Source: Cyanobacteria bacterium NC_groundwater_1444_Ag_S-0.65um_54_12
GTDB lineage: Bacteria; Cyanobacteriota; Sericytochromatia; S15B-MN24; VGJW01
Assembly: GCA_016267585.1 (NCBI GenBank)
Contig: JACQUT010000123.1
Coordinates: 1-6,062 of the forward strand
DNA: 6,062 bases
Reading direction: 5' to 3'
Part shown: positions 2 through 6,062 of the stretch, piece after piece
How the letters are laid out: every line of letters starts with the position of its first letter
Numbering within the stretch: the stretch's first letter is position 1
Made by a program: the position numbers and the translations under genes
The notes under the pieces: model-generated
The model's input: the letters and a program-made list of their open reading frames with translations, nothing else
The model's database searches: none
Told to the model about the DNA's origin: nothing

Positions 2-1240
2 ATAAGCGGTGGTATCAAGTGCCGTAAAGTTCCCCAAATTACTGCAAAACTTGTCGCCAATCACCAGGATCTCTGGCAAATTGATCAAGAATGGCAGATC
101 AAGCTCGACAGTATTCGCCAGAAATTGAACATTCTATCAGGCGATAACCTTCAAGCGTGGGAAGTCCCAGCCAGGGCCGACGATAACTGGTCGGATCTAG
201 TAAAGACGCTCTGGCAAGCATGGTGGCAAGGTAAGCAGCAACGACGAACGGAGATCAATAAAGCCATCGCAAAACATGCCAACCCGGTCACTTTGTTCGA
301 TCAGCCTTTGGTAGATCGTAAAAAACTAAGAGTAGCAGGACCTTTCACGGTAGAAGCGGTTCCTGCTCCAGTGGTAAGATCGCTCAGTTCAGCAACCAAG
401 AGTACACAAGCTGCCGATAGTTCCATTGCGCGCCGTGGTGAAACGCACAGGCAGGCCTGGCTGCGAGACGAGTTGTTCAATACCGGTATCCGTGGCAAAT
501 CCGCTCAAAAGATAAAGTTTTCTCGAGTGGAAATACTGGCTGGCACGAGCTGGCTCCATGCCGAAGCTGAAACTGAAGAGAACGACCCGCAGCGCGCTGT
601 AATCGTTTTCGGGCCTGAATATGCACCTTTGGCGAGCTGGCAACTGGCTTTGGCCATCGCGGAAGCAAAACAACTGGTTCCCCGACCACAACTAGTAATC
701 TTTGTGGCATTTCAATTCGAGCCAGAAGCCGCCAGAACCATTGATGAAATGGTATTGCCAGACTTTACGCTACTCAAGGTCCAGATTAATACCGATCTGC
801 TTACTTCGGATCTCAAGAAAGGGCGTTCTGGTAATGATAGCTTCTGGCTGATTGGTCAACCCGATATAACGTTGCGGCGCAGCAATTGCGCTGAGCAAAT
901 TTCCAGATACCAGGTCGAAGTGCATGGATTTGACTATTACAACCCCCATTTGGGCAAGGTAGAGTCGGGTGACAAGAACAAGATTGCCATGTGGCTTCTC
1001 GATACTGATTATGATGGTTGCAGCCTATTGCCCAGCCAGGTGTTTTTTCCGATGTCAGGAAGAAGAGATGGCTGGGAACGTTTAGCCAGGGCCCTCAGTA
1101 CCGAGATCAACGCGGAGTTGCTCGAGACCTATCGCGGTACCACATCTTTACCGTTTGAACCAGGACAGCATAAGCGGCTAGCCGTCAAGATCATAGACGA
1201 CCGTGGGATCGAGAGCCTAAGGGTAATGGCGATCGGCTAG
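2..1240 (+). CDS. Site-specific DNA methyltransferase of a type III-like restriction-modification pair, C-terminal part (5' end outside window)
   Basis: The frame is open from the first complete codon at base 2 to TAG at 1238-1240, giving 412 visible residues. The TTG at 125 lies inside the open frame and is not a convincing start. The catalytic AdoMet domain (DPPY and FxGxG-type motifs) is not visible and should lie upstream. What is seen is the linker and C-terminal region typical of methyltransferases paired with large type III-like Res helicases. This includes a segment reading VDRKKLRVAGPFTVEAVP (bases about 311-364), then IAMWLLDTDYDG (about 986-1021) and VFFPMSG, ending in a strand-rich tail with AVKIIDDRGIESLRV. 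By family knowledge it would methylate a base (probably adenine) in a specific DNA site to protect the host. The restriction gene follows after six bases in the same frame, so the two are almost certainly one operon. I am sure of the family and less sure of the exact methylation chemistry. Confidence 0.85.
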   Translation: MSGGIKCRKVPQITAKLVANHQDLWQIDQEWQIKLDSIRQKLNILSGDNLQAWEVPARADDNWSDLVKTLWQAWWQGKQQRRTEINKAIAKHANPVTLFDQPLVDRKKLRVAGPFTVEAVPAPVVRSLSSATKSTQAADSSIARRGETHRQAWLRDELFNTGIRGKSAQKIKFSRVEILAGTSWLHAEAETEENDPQRAVIVFGPEYAPLASWQLALAIAEAKQLVPRPQLVIFVAFQFEPEAARTIDEMVLPDFTLLKVQINTDLLTSDLKKGRSGNDSFWLIGQPDITLRRSNCAEQISRYQVEVHGFDYYNPHLGKVESGDKNKIAMWLLDTDYDGCSLLPSQVFFPMSGRRDGWERLARALSTEINAELLETYRGTTSLPFEPGQHKRLAVKIIDDRGIESLRVMAIG

Positions 1241-1246
1241 ACGGTA

Positions 1247-3964
1247 ATGGCCGGTCTGATCATCAACTCACCATACGAAGAGCCAGCACGCCATTGGCAT
1301 TACGATCGCCCTTCGCAACAGTTCATCCTGCTATCCGCTCGTCGCCCGGCAGGTTATTTGCTAGCAACGCCAGGTTCCCGAAATTTCGCCGATCCGGGTA
1401 TTTTTGTGGCGATCGCACTGGTCAATCAACTCAGGGCCAGAGTAAAAGCGTGGCGAACCGATCGCGAAAATCCTTACGCTGGCGTTTCGGGAATCACGCG
1501 TCGCTTACTGGCTTACTGGCACACTGGGGCAGAGCGGCAGTACCCTTTCTTCTTTGCTCAACTTGAAGCCATCGAAACCTTGATATGGTTAACAGAAGCG
1601 CCGTTAGCCCAACGTCTAGGTGTCCAGGTTCCGAGCGATGGGGGAAAATTTGCGCGCTGGTGCGTCAAGATGGCGACCGGAACCGGGAAAACGGTCGTCA
1701 TGGCGATGCTCATCGCTTGGCAGATCCTGAACAAACTGGCCTATGGCCAGGATAAACGCTTCTCTAAAAGTATTCTGGTAGTGGCACCGGGATTGACGGT
1801 AAAGAACCGCTTACAATCGCTAAGGCTGGCGCAAAAAGACAACTATTACGAACGGTTCGACATCGTACCACCGGATTTGCGCAGCCAGCTGCACCAAGGC
1901 CGAGTCATGATCCATAACTGGCAAGCGTTAAGCTGGGATGGTGAAAGGCAGTTCATCAGACGTAATTCCGTAGATAAACGTGGCCCCAAGAGTGACGAAG
2001 CCTATGCCGCTGCAATCCTGAAAGACGCGGAAAAGTCCCGCAATCTGCTGGTTATCAATGACGAGGCTCATCACGCTTGGCGCATGCCTGCTAGCCGAAG
2101 TACCGTCAAGCTCACCAATAACGAAACCGCCAATGTCACAAAATGGATCGCTAGCTTGGACCGCATCCACAGCGCAAGAGGCATCCGCACCTGTTTTGAT
2201 TTCTCGGCTACGCCTTTTATCCCTTCAGGTAAAGAAAACAGCACCGAGACCATCTTCGATTGGATCGTCAGTGATTTTAGCCTGAACGACGCTATCGAGG
2301 CCGGATTGGTCAAAACCCCTCGTATGTTAGTCAGGCATGATGGTTGCGGTAGCACGCAAGACCAGCGGCGTTTTTATCAAATCTATCACGATCCCGAGGT
2401 CAAAAATGATTTAAAGCGGCGAGCTAAGCCTCATGAGCCGCTTCCTGAGCTAGTCGTAGCGAGCTATCATCTGCTCGGCAAAGATTGGCTGGAGACTGAT
2501 AAAGCGTGGAAAGCAGCGGGCCAGCCAGTGCCTCCGGTAATGATCACCATAGCAAATCGCACTGAAACTGCGGCCCGCGTCAAGTACGCTTTCGACCACG
2601 GCAAAATCGGTAGCGCTGAATTATGCGTGCCAGACAAGACGCTGCACATCGACTCTCGGGTCCTGGAACAAGCAGAAGCGCAAACTACCATTCCGGTGTT
2701 GCAGGAACAAGCGGAATGGTTGCGCTGCTGCGTAAATACGATAGGCCAAGCAGGCGAGCCAGGCGAATCGATTCAGAACGTAATTTCGGTCAAAATGCTT
2801 TCCGAAGGCTGGGATGCCAGAACAGTCACCCATATCATCGGTTTGCGTGCCTTTTCCAGCCAGTTGCTTTGCGAGCAAGTGGTAGGCCGTGGCCTCAGGC
2901 GCATGTCTTACGATGTCGACCCCGAAACTGGCTTGCTCGAGGCGGAATACGTCAATATCTTCGGTGTGCCATTCACCTTCATGCCGCATGAAAGTGGAGA
3001 TAGCCTGCCACCGCCTCCGACCAAGCCTGCGGTCCGAATAGAACCGCTTGCCGAGCGGGCGCAACTGGCGATCGCGTGGCCGCAAGTAATTCGCATCGAA
3101 CGGCTTCGTCGACTCGAATTACTTCTCGATTTCGAACGCCTGGAACCACTAGTGCTTGCTGACACTTTGACAAAGTGCCAGCGTTTGATCCCGAAATGGC
3201 GAGTACAGCAAGCGCTATTTGTGGAGGCTAGTAGCTTCGTCGCGGAGCTACCACCGCAGTGGTCAGCATACAAAGAACTATTGGTAGGTCAACTTATTTG
3301 TCTGGTCGAAAAATTCCTGACTGCAAAATATTGCACTATTGCACCGCAGCCTTTTGATCTTGCGGAGGAATCGCGACAACTGGTTTTCCTCCGCAACATG
3401 CGCACAATAATACGCCATGTCTGGGAGGCGACTCGCTTTGAGAGTTCTGAAACAAGCAGCCCGGTATTCGATCGCTCCTGGCCCATGCGCTCTACCAGTG
3501 ATGTAGTGGGCTGGTGCACTAAAGAGCCCTGCCGGCCCACGAAAAAATCTCAGCTGAATCTCTATCGCCATGACAACGAACAAGAAGCCAACATGGTAGC
3601 TGAATTCGAAAATTGTCCGCTGGTAGCTGCGTGGGCCAAGAATGATCGCCTGGGATTCGAAATAGTCTATCGCAGCGCGGGATTCATCCATAAATATTTT
3701 CCCGATTTCTTGTTGCGTTTTTCGAACGGTAATCTGCTAGTCTTGGCGGTGGAAAAAGCCAGTACCGGACAAGACCAAGCAAAGCTTGGCACCCTGGCAG
3801 GGTGGGTCGAGGCGGTAAACAATCATGGCGGGTTAGGTTTCTGGCAATGGGCGGTCATTCCCTTTCCCAGCAATGGGTTGAGTGAGTTATTGGAACAGGC
3901 ATACCAGGGGGATTGCGATCGCTCCGGAAAGACTACTGTTATCGTTAGTAGTTTTTATCTCTGA
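1247..3964 (+). CDS. Type III-like restriction subunit (SF2 helicase plus degenerate PD-(D/E)xK nuclease)
   Basis: This 905-residue protein belongs to the Res-type DEAD/DEAH helicase-nucleases; from memory it most resembles the group named BPTD_3080 family restriction endonuclease. Helicase motifs are complete: Walker A ATGTGKT (143-149), DEAH (272-275) followed by HAW, motif III SATPF (320-324), motif V SEGWDA (519-524) and motif VI QVVGRGLRR (544-552). These predict ATP-driven translocation on DNA after the methyltransferase partner recognises an unmodified site. The C-terminal nuclease region keeps YFPDF (PD at 819-820) and the later QDQAK and WVEAVN landmarks. Where relatives have LEVKG, this protein has LAVEK (833-837), so the catalytic Glu and Lys are replaced by Ala834 and Glu836. 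Cleavage may therefore be lost. The ATG at 1247 is six bases after the methyltransferase stop and lacks a clear Shine-Dalgarno sequence, suggesting translational coupling. A final tail of about 15 residues has no obvious counterpart in relatives I recall. Confidence 0.92.
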   Translation: MAGLIINSPYEEPARHWHYDRPSQQFILLSARRPAGYLLATPGSRNFADPGIFVAIALVNQLRARVKAWRTDRENPYAGVSGITRRLLAYWHTGAERQYPFFFAQLEAIETLIWLTEAPLAQRLGVQVPSDGGKFARWCVKMATGTGKTVVMAMLIAWQILNKLAYGQDKRFSKSILVVAPGLTVKNRLQSLRLAQKDNYYERFDIVPPDLRSQLHQGRVMIHNWQALSWDGERQFIRRNSVDKRGPKSDEAYAAAILKDAEKSRNLLVINDEAHHAWRMPASRSTVKLTNNETANVTKWIASLDRIHSARGIRTCFDFSATPFIPSGKENSTETIFDWIVSDFSLNDAIEAGLVKTPRMLVRHDGCGSTQDQRRFYQIYHDPEVKNDLKRRAKPHEPLPELVVASYHLLGKDWLETDKAWKAAGQPVPPVMITIANRTETAARVKYAFDHGKIGSAELCVPDKTLHIDSRVLEQAEAQTTIPVLQEQAEWLRCCVNTIGQAGEPGESIQNVISVKMLSEGWDARTVTHIIGLRAFSSQLLCEQVVGRGLRRMSYDVDPETGLLEAEYVNIFGVPFTFMPHESGDSLPPPPTKPAVRIEPLAERAQLAIAWPQVIRIERLRRLELLLDFERLEPLVLADTLTKCQRLIPKWRVQQALFVEASSFVAELPPQWSAYKELLVGQLICLVEKFLTAKYCTIAPQPFDLAEESRQLVFLRNMRTIIRHVWEATRFESSETSSPVFDRSWPMRSTSDVVGWCTKEPCRPTKKSQLNLYRHDNEQEANMVAEFENCPLVAAWAKNDRLGFEIVYRSAGFIHKYFPDFLLRFSNGNLLVLAVEKASTGQDQAKLGTLAGWVEAVNNHGGLGFWQWAVIPFPSNGLSELLEQAYQGDCDRSGKTTVIVSSFYL
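1409..1416. repeat. HIP1 octamer GCGATCGC
   Basis: A perfect palindromic GCGATCGC lies in the N-terminal part of the restriction gene, read as Ala-Ile-Ala. Confidence 0.8.
3068..3075. repeat. HIP1 octamer GCGATCGC
   Basis: This second copy in the restriction gene sits after the helicase motifs, again read in frame as Ala-Ile-Ala. Confidence 0.8.
3915..3922. repeat. HIP1 octamer GCGATCGC
   Basis: This third copy is in the unusual C-terminal tail of the restriction gene and is read in another phase as Cys-Asp-Arg. Confidence 0.8.
3932..3956 (+). terminator. Possible weak intrinsic terminator at the end of the restriction gene
   Basis: ACTACT (3932-3937) pairs with AGTAGT (3947-3952) around a 9-base loop, and TTTT follows directly (3953-3956). 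The hairpin lies inside the last codons of the restriction gene, ending eight bases before the end of its stop codon. The stem is short and only half G/C, so termination would be inefficient at best and the match could be chance. Confidence 0.28.
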
Positions 3965-4063: not shown

Positions 4064-4069
4064 AAGGAG
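4064..4069 (+). promoter_or_regulatory. Shine-Dalgarno sequence that decides a CTG start
   Basis: AAGGAG lies 7 bases before CTG at 4077. It is the only strong ribosome-binding match near the beginning of the ATPase frame. No ATG, GTG or TTG occurs in that frame between the upstream stop at 4059-4061 and GTG at 4167. Confidence 0.7.
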
Positions 4070-4076
4070 CAATAGA

Positions 4077-4841
4077 CTGATCCACTTTGCGAAGGTAAGC
4101 AAGTGCTTTGGGCAGCAGGAAGTCCTGTCAAAATTAGATCTGTTAATTCCGGCAGGCCAGAAAGTCGTGATAATCGGACCTTCCGGTTCAGGGAAAAGTA
4201 CTTTATTGCGTTGTATCAATAAACTAGACGAAATAGCTACTGGCCAGCTTACTGTATTGGGAATTCCGGTTCATTCGGCGCAGGGGGAATTGCTGAATCG
4301 TTTGCGCGCTGATGTGGGGATGGTTTTCCAGAATTTCAATTTATTCCCCCACAAAACGGTACTGGAAAACTTGACTCTCGCACCAATGAAAGTGCGTCGC
4401 ATTCCGCGGGCTGAAGCCGAACATACTGCATACAATTTACTCGAGCGCGTCGGTATACCAGAGAAGGCACAGCAATATCCTGGCCAACTTTCAGGCGGGC
4501 AGCAGCAGCGAGTGGCGATCGCCCGCAGTCTGGCCATGAAGCCGAAGATCATGCTCTTTGATGAACCTACCAGTGCTTTGGACCCCGAGATGATCCAGGA
4601 AGTCTTACAGGTGATGATCGATGTCGCTCACAGCAATTTGACCATCCTGGTCGTAACGCACGAGCTCGGATTTGCCCGCGAAGTAGCTGATCGCGTGCTC
4701 TTCATGGAAAAAGGACAAATCGTTGAAGACAGCGAGAGTGCCGATTTCTTTGCCAATCCCCGAACTGATCGTGCTCGTGAGTTTTTAGCATCCGTGCGCC
4801 ATGGAATGAGTAGTAACTGCTCACCAGGAGGTGATTTCTGA
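4077..4841 (+). CDS. Polar amino acid ABC transporter ATP-binding protein (GlnQ/ArtP-like)
   Basis: Read from CTG at 4077, this is a 254-residue cytoplasmic ATPase that would power amino acid import through a membrane permease fed by a periplasmic binding protein. Motifs in order: an N-terminal strand resembling the usual MIxFxxVSKxFG opening, with the A-loop aromatic position apparently taken by Phe12; Walker A GPSGSGKST (34-42); Q-loop Gln85 in VFQNFNLFPH; signature LSGGQ (138-142); Walker B MLFDE (159-163); D-loop SALD (166-169); switch His195 in VVTHELGFAREVADRV. The last form is typical of the polar amino acid subfamily. Starting at GTG 4167 would remove the first strand, so CTG is preferred. 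The length is normal, but the final residues SSNCSPGGDF look added and are encoded within the structured element at 4813-4937. No permease or binding protein gene adjoins it, so substrate and partners are unknown; glutamine, arginine, glutamate or histidine are all possible. Confidence 0.93.
   Translation: MIHFAKVSKCFGQQEVLSKLDLLIPAGQKVVIIGPSGSGKSTLLRCINKLDEIATGQLTVLGIPVHSAQGELLNRLRADVGMVFQNFNLFPHKTVLENLTLAPMKVRRIPRAEAEHTAYNLLERVGIPEKAQQYPGQLSGGQQQRVAIARSLAMKPKIMLFDEPTSALDPEMIQEVLQVMIDVAHSNLTILVVTHELGFAREVADRVLFMEKGQIVEDSESADFFANPRTDRAREFLASVRHGMSSNCSPGGDF
4515..4522. repeat. HIP1 octamer GCGATCGC
   Basis: This copy falls in the ATPase gene, just after the ABC signature, where Ala-Ile-Ala is a normally conserved stretch. 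Confidence 0.8.
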
Positions 4842-4937
4842 GTGCGCCCGCAGGCTCCGGGCCGCAGCGTACTGGGGAGGTACGTGAGGCACTGGGCCGA
4901 GGACGAAAGCCAGAAAGCGACCCTGGTGAGCAGTTAC
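4813..4937 (+). repeat. GC-rich structured element closed by a perfect 16-bp inverted repeat
   Basis: GTAACTGCTCACCAGG at 4813-4828 is the exact reverse complement of 4922-4937. Inside, TTTCTG (4835-4840) can pair with CAGAAA (4911-4916). Two 5-bp hairpins with 7-base loops follow each other: 4846-4850 with 4858-4862, and 4868-4872 with 4880-4884. A third possible hairpin (4892-4897 with 4909-4913) competes with the inner stem. Bases 4842-4937 are about 68% G+C, well above the flanking genes. The element starts within the last codons of the ATPase gene, contains its stop codon, and ends 27 bases before the probable start of the next gene. It could be a structured leader RNA, a processing or terminator-like structure, or a small inserted palindromic repeat. 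I could not match it to a riboswitch, RNase P, SRP, tmRNA or attC pattern. Confidence 0.6.
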
Positions 4938-4951
4938 GATGAGTATGCCCA

Positions 4952-4964: not shown

Positions 4965-6062
4965 ATGAATGTCATGCCAGTCAAGGGTTTGGTGCATAAG
5001 CTGGCGCGCGGTGGGGTGTTGGTAGAAACCTCGGCAGGCCCGCTTCAATTCGGAGCGGTTCCCGAGACGATCAAGGACACCATGCTCACAGCTGGTGGGG
5101 TACCGGCCATTTACGTGGTGGGCGATCGTCTTTTTTCTACCAAACATGGGATCAGCTTGGCCGATCTGGAATTCCCCATTTATTTCAATTTTTTTGCGCA
5201 AAGACGTAAGACCATTTGTGTTTGCCAGCCCAGCCAAAAGCGCGTGATCGCTGCCATAATGCGCGAAGCCGTCCTTGGTCCACGCAAAGTGGATGTCAGT
5301 ACCGAAATTGCTGCCGGACCCGTTCCTAAACTGGCTGACGAAATAGCCTATTTCCGTAGAAACCCCTTAGCGGGTAACCCTTTGGAGTTCGAGGACATGC
5401 TCGAATTCCTGCTCTTCGATCGAACCGGCAGAGCCAAGCTTGCCGGAGTCGAGATTCAGCGCGGATCAGATGGACAATTTTCAGTCAAAGATTCGGGCGA
5501 ATTAATCGCTCAATTCCCGATGGAATTGCCTGTTCCTGCTGCTCTAGAGGAAACCCATGTCAGGGTAGCGCCCTTCCATCCCCCCGCCTTCGGAATTACT
5601 TTCATCGGCACTGGCCATGGTTTCGATCCCAATACCATGACCAGTGGTTTCGTGATATGGGTAAATCACCGGGGCATTTTGGTGGATCCGCCGGTAAATA
5701 GCACCGAATGGTTCAAGAAAGAGGAGATCAACCCCAAGCTTATTGATGCGATCATACTCACTCATTGCCATGCGGATCACGATGGCGGGACGTTGCAAAA
5801 AATCCTTTCCGAAGGGCGAATAAAAGTATATACAACTCCCACCATCATGGGGAGCTTTGTGCACAAATATCGCCAACTAGTCGGATTAAGCCGGAGGCAC
5901 TTTGACGCACTATTTGATTTCGTGCCAATTAGCATTTGTGAGCCGATTCGCATACATGGTGGGGAATTTTATTTCCATTACACCTTACACTCGATTCCTT
6001 GCGTGGGTTTCGAAGTATTCTGGGGAGGAAAATCCTTCGTTTATACCTCAGATACGCTATAT
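4965..6062 (+). CDS. Metallo-beta-lactamase-fold protein resembling cAMP/cGMP-dependent cyclic nucleotide phosphodiesterase, partial (3' end outside window)
   Basis: The frame has no stop up to the window edge, giving 366 residues from ATG 4965. It is also open upstream to GTG 4842, which would add 41 residues. The N-terminal part has GGVLVET, PLQFG, PETIKDTM and EFPIYFNFF, a pattern I recall from the Bd1971-type phosphodiesterases, which place a metallo-beta-lactamase domain before a cyclic nucleotide-binding domain. The metal-binding motif THCHADHDGG is clear, with His267, His269, Asp271 and His272. Further probable ligands are His342 in LHSIPCVGF and Asp363 in YTSD. By family knowledge it would hydrolyse cAMP or cGMP in the cytoplasm and be activated by the same nucleotides; the sensor domain would lie beyond the window and is not seen. 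It follows the ATPase gene by 123 bases on the same strand, so co-transcription is possible. The fold is certain; the substrate assignment is from recalled similarity. Confidence 0.72.
   Translation, partial: MNVMPVKGLVHKLARGGVLVETSAGPLQFGAVPETIKDTMLTAGGVPAIYVVGDRLFSTKHGISLADLEFPIYFNFFAQRRKTICVCQPSQKRVIAAIMREAVLGPRKVDVSTEIAAGPVPKLADEIAYFRRNPLAGNPLEFEDMLEFLLFDRTGRAKLAGVEIQRGSDGQFSVKDSGELIAQFPMELPVPAALEETHVRVAPFHPPAFGITFIGTGHGFDPNTMTSGFVIWVNHRGILVDPPVNSTEWFKKEEINPKLIDAIILTHCHADHDGGTLQKILSEGRIKVYTTPTIMGSFVHKYRQLVGLSRRHFDALFDFVPISICEPIRIHGGEFYFHYTLHSIPCVGFEVFWGGKSFVYTSDTLY

Follow-up and report, generated by a model that had tools for sequence, protein, structure and literature searches.

The Type III-like Mod-Res operon described here has probably ceased to restrict DNA: its Res subunit has lost the catalytic glutamate and lysine of the nuclease and is predicted to be a non-cutting, ATP-driven motor acting with the methyltransferase Mod, the operon as a whole likely persisting for methylation. 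The stretch of DNA analysed (the window, 6,062 nucleotides) is the entire contig C45 of a 2.07 Mb, 64.6% complete metagenome-derived genome (G000), and all coordinates below refer to its forward (+) strand. We infer the loss of cleavage, the ATPase activity and movement of Res, a working Mod at this locus and the reason for which the motor is retained from comparisons of sequence and predicted structure.

Mod lies directly upstream of Res on the same strand in an operon-like arrangement, the Mod reading frame ending at 1240 and Res starting at 1247. The contig begins inside mod, and only the last 412 amino acids are visible (2..1240; positions 568–983 of the 983 in the PADLOC MTase_III profile). 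The start and the catalytic motifs of Mod lie off the contig, a point that counts against reading the operon as a methylation system. A search of the G000 assembly with a full-length Mod did not identify the N-terminal part elsewhere; the best other match, on contig C64 and ahead of two weaker ones, reads as another methyltransferase and was rejected as the missing portion. The Res subunit (905 amino acids, 1247..3964) combines an SF2 helicase with a nuclease domain. It matches Pfam ResIII and, over the whole protein, scores 891.9 bits against NF046055 (curated cut-off 800), which places it in the BPTD_3080 family, named presumably after a B. pertussis locus tag. The window's Res resembles the members of this family in its whole length, motor, spacer, nuclease fold and the Mod just upstream, and differs from them by the substituted glutamate and lysine and by a shortened spacer and one shortened loop.

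Downstream of Res lie an ABC ATPase gene and the first part of a gene with a metallo-beta-lactamase fold. The ABC ATPase frame is open upstream of its listed GTG start as far as a CTG at 4077 (LIHFAKVSKCFGQQ...), with AGGAG at 4065–4069; the CTG is possibly the start codon, or a lost ATG. Between the two genes lies a dispersed element of about 125 bases (4812–4938) with terminal inverted repeats of 17 bases (one mismatch) and 29 matches in G000, including itself. The first 41 or so residues of ORF 4842 come from this element, and orthologues of the ORF align only from residue 42–52; the gene therefore likely starts at the ATG at 4965.

The first half of the PD-(D/E)xK active site is kept as P819-D820-F821 (3701..3709, with the D820 codon at 3704–3706), and the aspartate is present in 119 of 119 relatives listed (the best 120 of 8000). 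In the second half, LAVEK (3743..3757) stands in place of LE-x-KG. Read directly, the codons are GCG for A834 (3746–3748), then V835, GAA for E836 (3752–3754) and AAA for K837 (3755–3757). Across the same listed relatives (best 120 of 8000), the column of A834, the catalytic glutamate, holds Glu in 119/119; that of E836, the catalytic lysine, holds Lys in 118/119 and Asn in one; and that of K837 holds Gly in 119/119. The motif stretch aligns without gaps to these 119 proteins, which are 52–56% identical to the window's Res by BLASTP. Hence the preliminary description was right that PDF is kept, that the alignment is gap-free and that both catalytic residues are truly substituted. D820, E780 and K846 are common to the window's Res and all 119 relatives listed (best 120 of 8000). 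A second list of homologues (the best 120 of 1850) has Asp, Glu and Lys in 118 of 120, the exceptions being the protein of genome G002 and P0135. The C-terminus of the window's Res thus carries an incomplete PD-(D/E)xK motif, in which D820 is kept while A834 and E836 replace Glu and Lys, and for this reason we do not file Res as part of a working restriction system.

A survey of 386 genomes of the phylum gave 15 above the NF046055 cut-off. Besides the window, 10 of the 14 read E-x-K, and four keep Glu with Ser at the lysine place, showing that this place varies elsewhere. The glutamate was found lost in just two cases of this phylum-wide comparison, the window and G002, the latter aligning much less well and having Asp at this place. 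The four serine-bearing proteins (loci L033, L034, L041 and L043; LEVSG or VEASG) are 1042–1094 amino acids long and keep the nuclease Asp and Glu; on this branch the catalytic lysine has possibly moved. A search limited to residues 770–880 for a relative with the altered motif returned only P0121, whose motif is intact. Viral contigs held no stretch matching the window's Res, and the Res of genome G001 matched seven viral loci, with Glu and Lys in 7/7. One homologue of 1060 amino acids, P0003, contains part of the helicase sequence twice, by duplication or as an assembly artefact.

The motor is preserved, as had been claimed from the sequence. Motif I (ATGTGKT, residues 143–149, 1673..1693), motif II (NDEAHH, residues 271–276, 2057..2074), motif III (SATPF, residues 320–324, 2204..2218), motif V (MLSEGWD, residues 517–523, 2795..2815) and motif VI (QVVGRGLRR, residues 544–552, 2876..2902) are all present. 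Conserved columns were defined as those with at least 95% agreement among 31 representatives, thinned to under 80% identity from the 119 relatives listed. By this measure the nuclease domain of the window's Res (residues 771–875, 3557..3871) has lost 12 of its 39 conserved columns and the spacer 9 of 37; for the helicase the figure is 20 of 227, and for the N-terminus 2 of 35. Nuclease and helicase differ significantly (Fisher p 0.0005), also when the three motif positions are left out (9/36 in the nuclease, p 0.008). The helicase loss is itself the highest of the 32 proteins tabulated (the next being 16/232), as would befit a more distant member of the family. A regression of nuclease identity on that of the helicase, fitted to 31 relatives selected for it (17 from the first list, P0121 and 13 loci), placed the window's nuclease 4.9 residual standard deviations low and its spacer 3.2 low. 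Decay in the window's Res is accordingly local, since nuclease domain and spacer have drifted well beyond the helicase. The earlier argument against general decay therefore holds for the helicase motifs and needs qualifying elsewhere, both for the drifted regions and for the columns lost within the helicase.

Impaired nucleases recur in the GTDB family of the host (f1). Homologous Res proteins were found among 18 genomes of the class in G000, G001 and G002, all of f1, with G011 and G012 giving only weak matches of 23–24 bits. Three of the five f1 genomes compared carry a homologous Res and none of these has an intact nuclease site, which is substituted in the window, a remnant in G002 and missing in G001. 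In G002, a mod of 768 amino acids accompanies a res of 766 amino acids with a shortened spacer and the nuclease remnant PAF / LDLEP. In G001, mod encodes 736 amino acids and res 606, the latter stopping shortly past the helicase; searched with seven nuclease domains, the 19 kb around this res gave nothing better than E 0.75. The nuclease domain is likewise missing from P0135 (679 amino acids), which is 64% identical to the G001 Res over 599 amino acids. The SF2 motifs I, II, III, V and VI are present in the window's Res and in these three proteins, which resemble it in having kept the helicase and lost the nuclease site. They differ from it in scoring below the NF046055 cut-off (366–409 bits; G001 391, G002 366) and in lying on another branch. 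The ruined nuclease of G002 and its absence from G001 and P0135 lend support to the preliminary proposal that the methyltransferase is paired with a motor that does not cut. Moreover, the G001 and P0135 proteins have diverged to 64% identity without a nuclease and with every motif kept, which requires the motor of that lineage to have been under selection for a long time.

The G001 and G002 Mods keep DPPYG and DPTCGSGTT and match PF01555. In G004, from the genus of G002, Mod is 85% identical to that of G002, with dN 0.083, dS 0.386 and dN/dS 0.21 over 768 codons. DNA similarity between the two genomes stops at the Mod stop codon, and a Res was not found in G004 either in the 108 bases that follow Mod on its contig or in three genome searches of the 86% complete assembly, although one may lie in sequence that was not assembled. 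Matches to the G002 Mod, including the Mods themselves where present, number 15 in G001, 11 in G002, 5 in G003 and 13 in G004, and these genomes therefore seem rich in DNA methyltransferases.

It is conceivable that selection acts on Mod alone, and that res is at an early stage of dying, its motor already without function. The constraint on the G004 Mod where Res was not found would fit such plain decay, as would the drift of both spacer and nuclease in the window's Res. However, the frame of the latter is open over all 905 amino acids with its helicase motifs kept, and the G001/P0135 pair calls for prolonged selection on its motor. We regard plain decay as unlikely, although it retains some weight, and favour the retained, non-cutting motor.

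The window does not appear to represent an early stage of what is seen in G001, G002 and G004. Its Mod fragment is 53–58% identical to the Mod C-termini of L002, L003, L006 and L008 and 44% identical to the L009 Mod, and only 23–30% identical to the Mods of G001, G002 and G004. The latter three share a gene order (a gene that we take to be RelA/SpoT-like, a gene for an NYN-domain protein, then mod), indicating one inherited locus, which is not the one in the window. Given the low Mod identity and the different locus, we consider the window a parallel case. In a tree of 56 chosen rows, from which the L008 Res was left out (helicase frame of only 631 amino acids), the window's Res falls among core BPTD_3080 proteins, and G001, G002 and P0135 fall on another branch. 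A single clade of the four impaired proteins was rejected (AU p 0.0003), while a single clade of G001, G002 and P0135 was not (p 0.068, an indecisive value); the groups in both tests were named after the tree had been seen, and long branches are present. For these reasons only a minimum is claimed, namely that the nuclease appears from the sequences to have been lost independently at least twice. The number of f1 genomes behind this pattern of parallel loss is small.

Residual activity of the nuclease, or a site rebuilt from D820 with E836, K837 or K846, is improbable. The nuclease fold is still predicted: AlphaFold2 gives the helix-strand order of PD-(D/E)xK enzymes in the nuclease domain, with a block pLDDT of 75–92, and D820, E780 and K846 remain in place. 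Mean pLDDT was 68.8 for the window's Res and 69.9 for the reference P0008, the second helicase lobe being poorly modelled. Foldseek returned EcoR124I HsdR entries first, with TM-scores (0.18–0.24) too low to be informative; a sequence search of the PDB with the window's Res gave no match at E 0.001, and the family profile gave two weak helicase matches there. Variation of the motif occurs in the superfamily, to judge from the four cyanobacterial Res with Glu and Ser-for-Lys in otherwise long frames. BamHI naturally has Glu at the lysine place, and its E111A mutant, described as cleavage-deficient, keeps low residual cleavage (available text of PMC8845596). This mutant parallels the window in having Ala at the glutamate place and Glu at the lysine place of PD-(D/E)xK, but is a laboratory variant of a Type II enzyme. 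Because of the BamHI precedents, a dead nuclease is likely and not certain. Against continued cutting, the Ala-x-Glu-Lys arrangement occurs in none of the relatives listed (best 120 of 8000; best 120 of 1850), and 9 of 36 further conserved nuclease columns have been lost beside the motif. In the AlphaFold2 model, the strand that carries A834 (residues 830–836) ends at E836 and K837 lies just past it. The relocated Glu836-Lys837 site that had been suggested as an alternative is thus not supported.

A sequencing or assembly error is very improbable as the source of the odd motif. The window comes from a single metagenome-derived genome of limited completeness, and E834A and K836E are each reachable by one base change; yet three motif positions and nine further conserved nuclease positions differ, and no stop interrupts the frame. 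Nor is the contig foreign to G000, given that its last gene has orthologues of 63–71% identity in 4/4 other f1 genomes compared. It also fits G000 in its content of the octamer GCGATCGC, which we take to be HIP1: there are 478 copies genome-wide against 85 of a reversed control (5.6-fold), and four in the window against 0.2 expected. The octamer also points to Cyanobacteriota as the probable phylum. Supply of the nuclease in trans by another protein is hardly credible: an NYN-domain protein (666 amino acids in G002, 726 in G001; a domain presumably PIN-like) adjoins mod in G001, G002 and G004 (L063, L064, L082), but its gene is transcribed away from mod and still stands beside Mod in G004, where Res was not found, and the visible side of the window's locus offers only the ABC ATPase and the metallo-beta-lactamase-fold gene, both common to all four other family genomes.

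The preferred reading, a non-cutting Res motor alongside Mod, can be set beside characterised systems. EcoP15I and other Type III enzymes likewise have Mod beside a Res with an SF2 motor and a C-terminal PD-(D/E)xK domain. The active-site residues of EcoP15I are D898, E916 and K918 (PMC11142916, available text), and the counterparts of E916 and K918 in the window's Res are Ala and Glu. In phasevarions, Type III mod genes lie beside inactive res genes and Mod is said to be selected without restriction (available text of PMC3311624). The window shares the latter feature under our reading and differs in having an uninterrupted res frame whose defect sits in the active site; the 5' end of its mod is off the contig. 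A B. pertussis system is included in table 4 of PMC8259958 (m4C Type III). According to the available portion of that paper, the six systems characterised there have a canonical PD-(D/E)xK, unlike the window's Res, and two m4C Type III systems showed methylation only on co-expression of Res with Mod. Such a need of methylation for Res is a possible reason to keep one that does not cut. A literature search for BPTD_3080 found nothing, and no Res lineages without a nuclease are described in the titles and abstract beginnings covered. What appears new relative to the known cases is the active-site loss in an open res frame, together with nuclease-less Res in the same bacterial family kept over long divergence.

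In the mechanism that we propose, Mod would recognise and methylate its own site, and Res would associate with Mod and translocate by ATP hydrolysis without cutting. The retained motor may support Mod activity, as in the two co-expression cases above. The folded but dead nuclease domain may still serve, since the nuclease domain of EcoP15I has been proposed to act as a clamp in long-range communication (PMC11142916, available text). The apparent ability of G004 to manage without Res argues against the motor being needed.

It appears likely that Mod-Res systems in the host's family have repeatedly lost cutting and kept methylation, with the motor as a non-cutting partner. Because the corresponding nuclease part has decayed or disappeared in relatives, the operon in the window is probably for marking DNA and not for destroying it. 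More tentatively, members of f1, which are probably non-photosynthetic Cyanobacteriota, might possess a cutter-free Mod and Res motor, its nuclease lost at least twice independently, that now assists methylation or travels along foreign DNA as a roadblock. A single bacterial family would thereby provide natural examples of a substituted active site, a nuclease domain worn down to a remnant, one deleted outright and a res gene that is apparently gone, four ways in which restriction-modification may turn into a methylation system. These make it testable what use a Type III ATP-burning motor has when nothing is cut.
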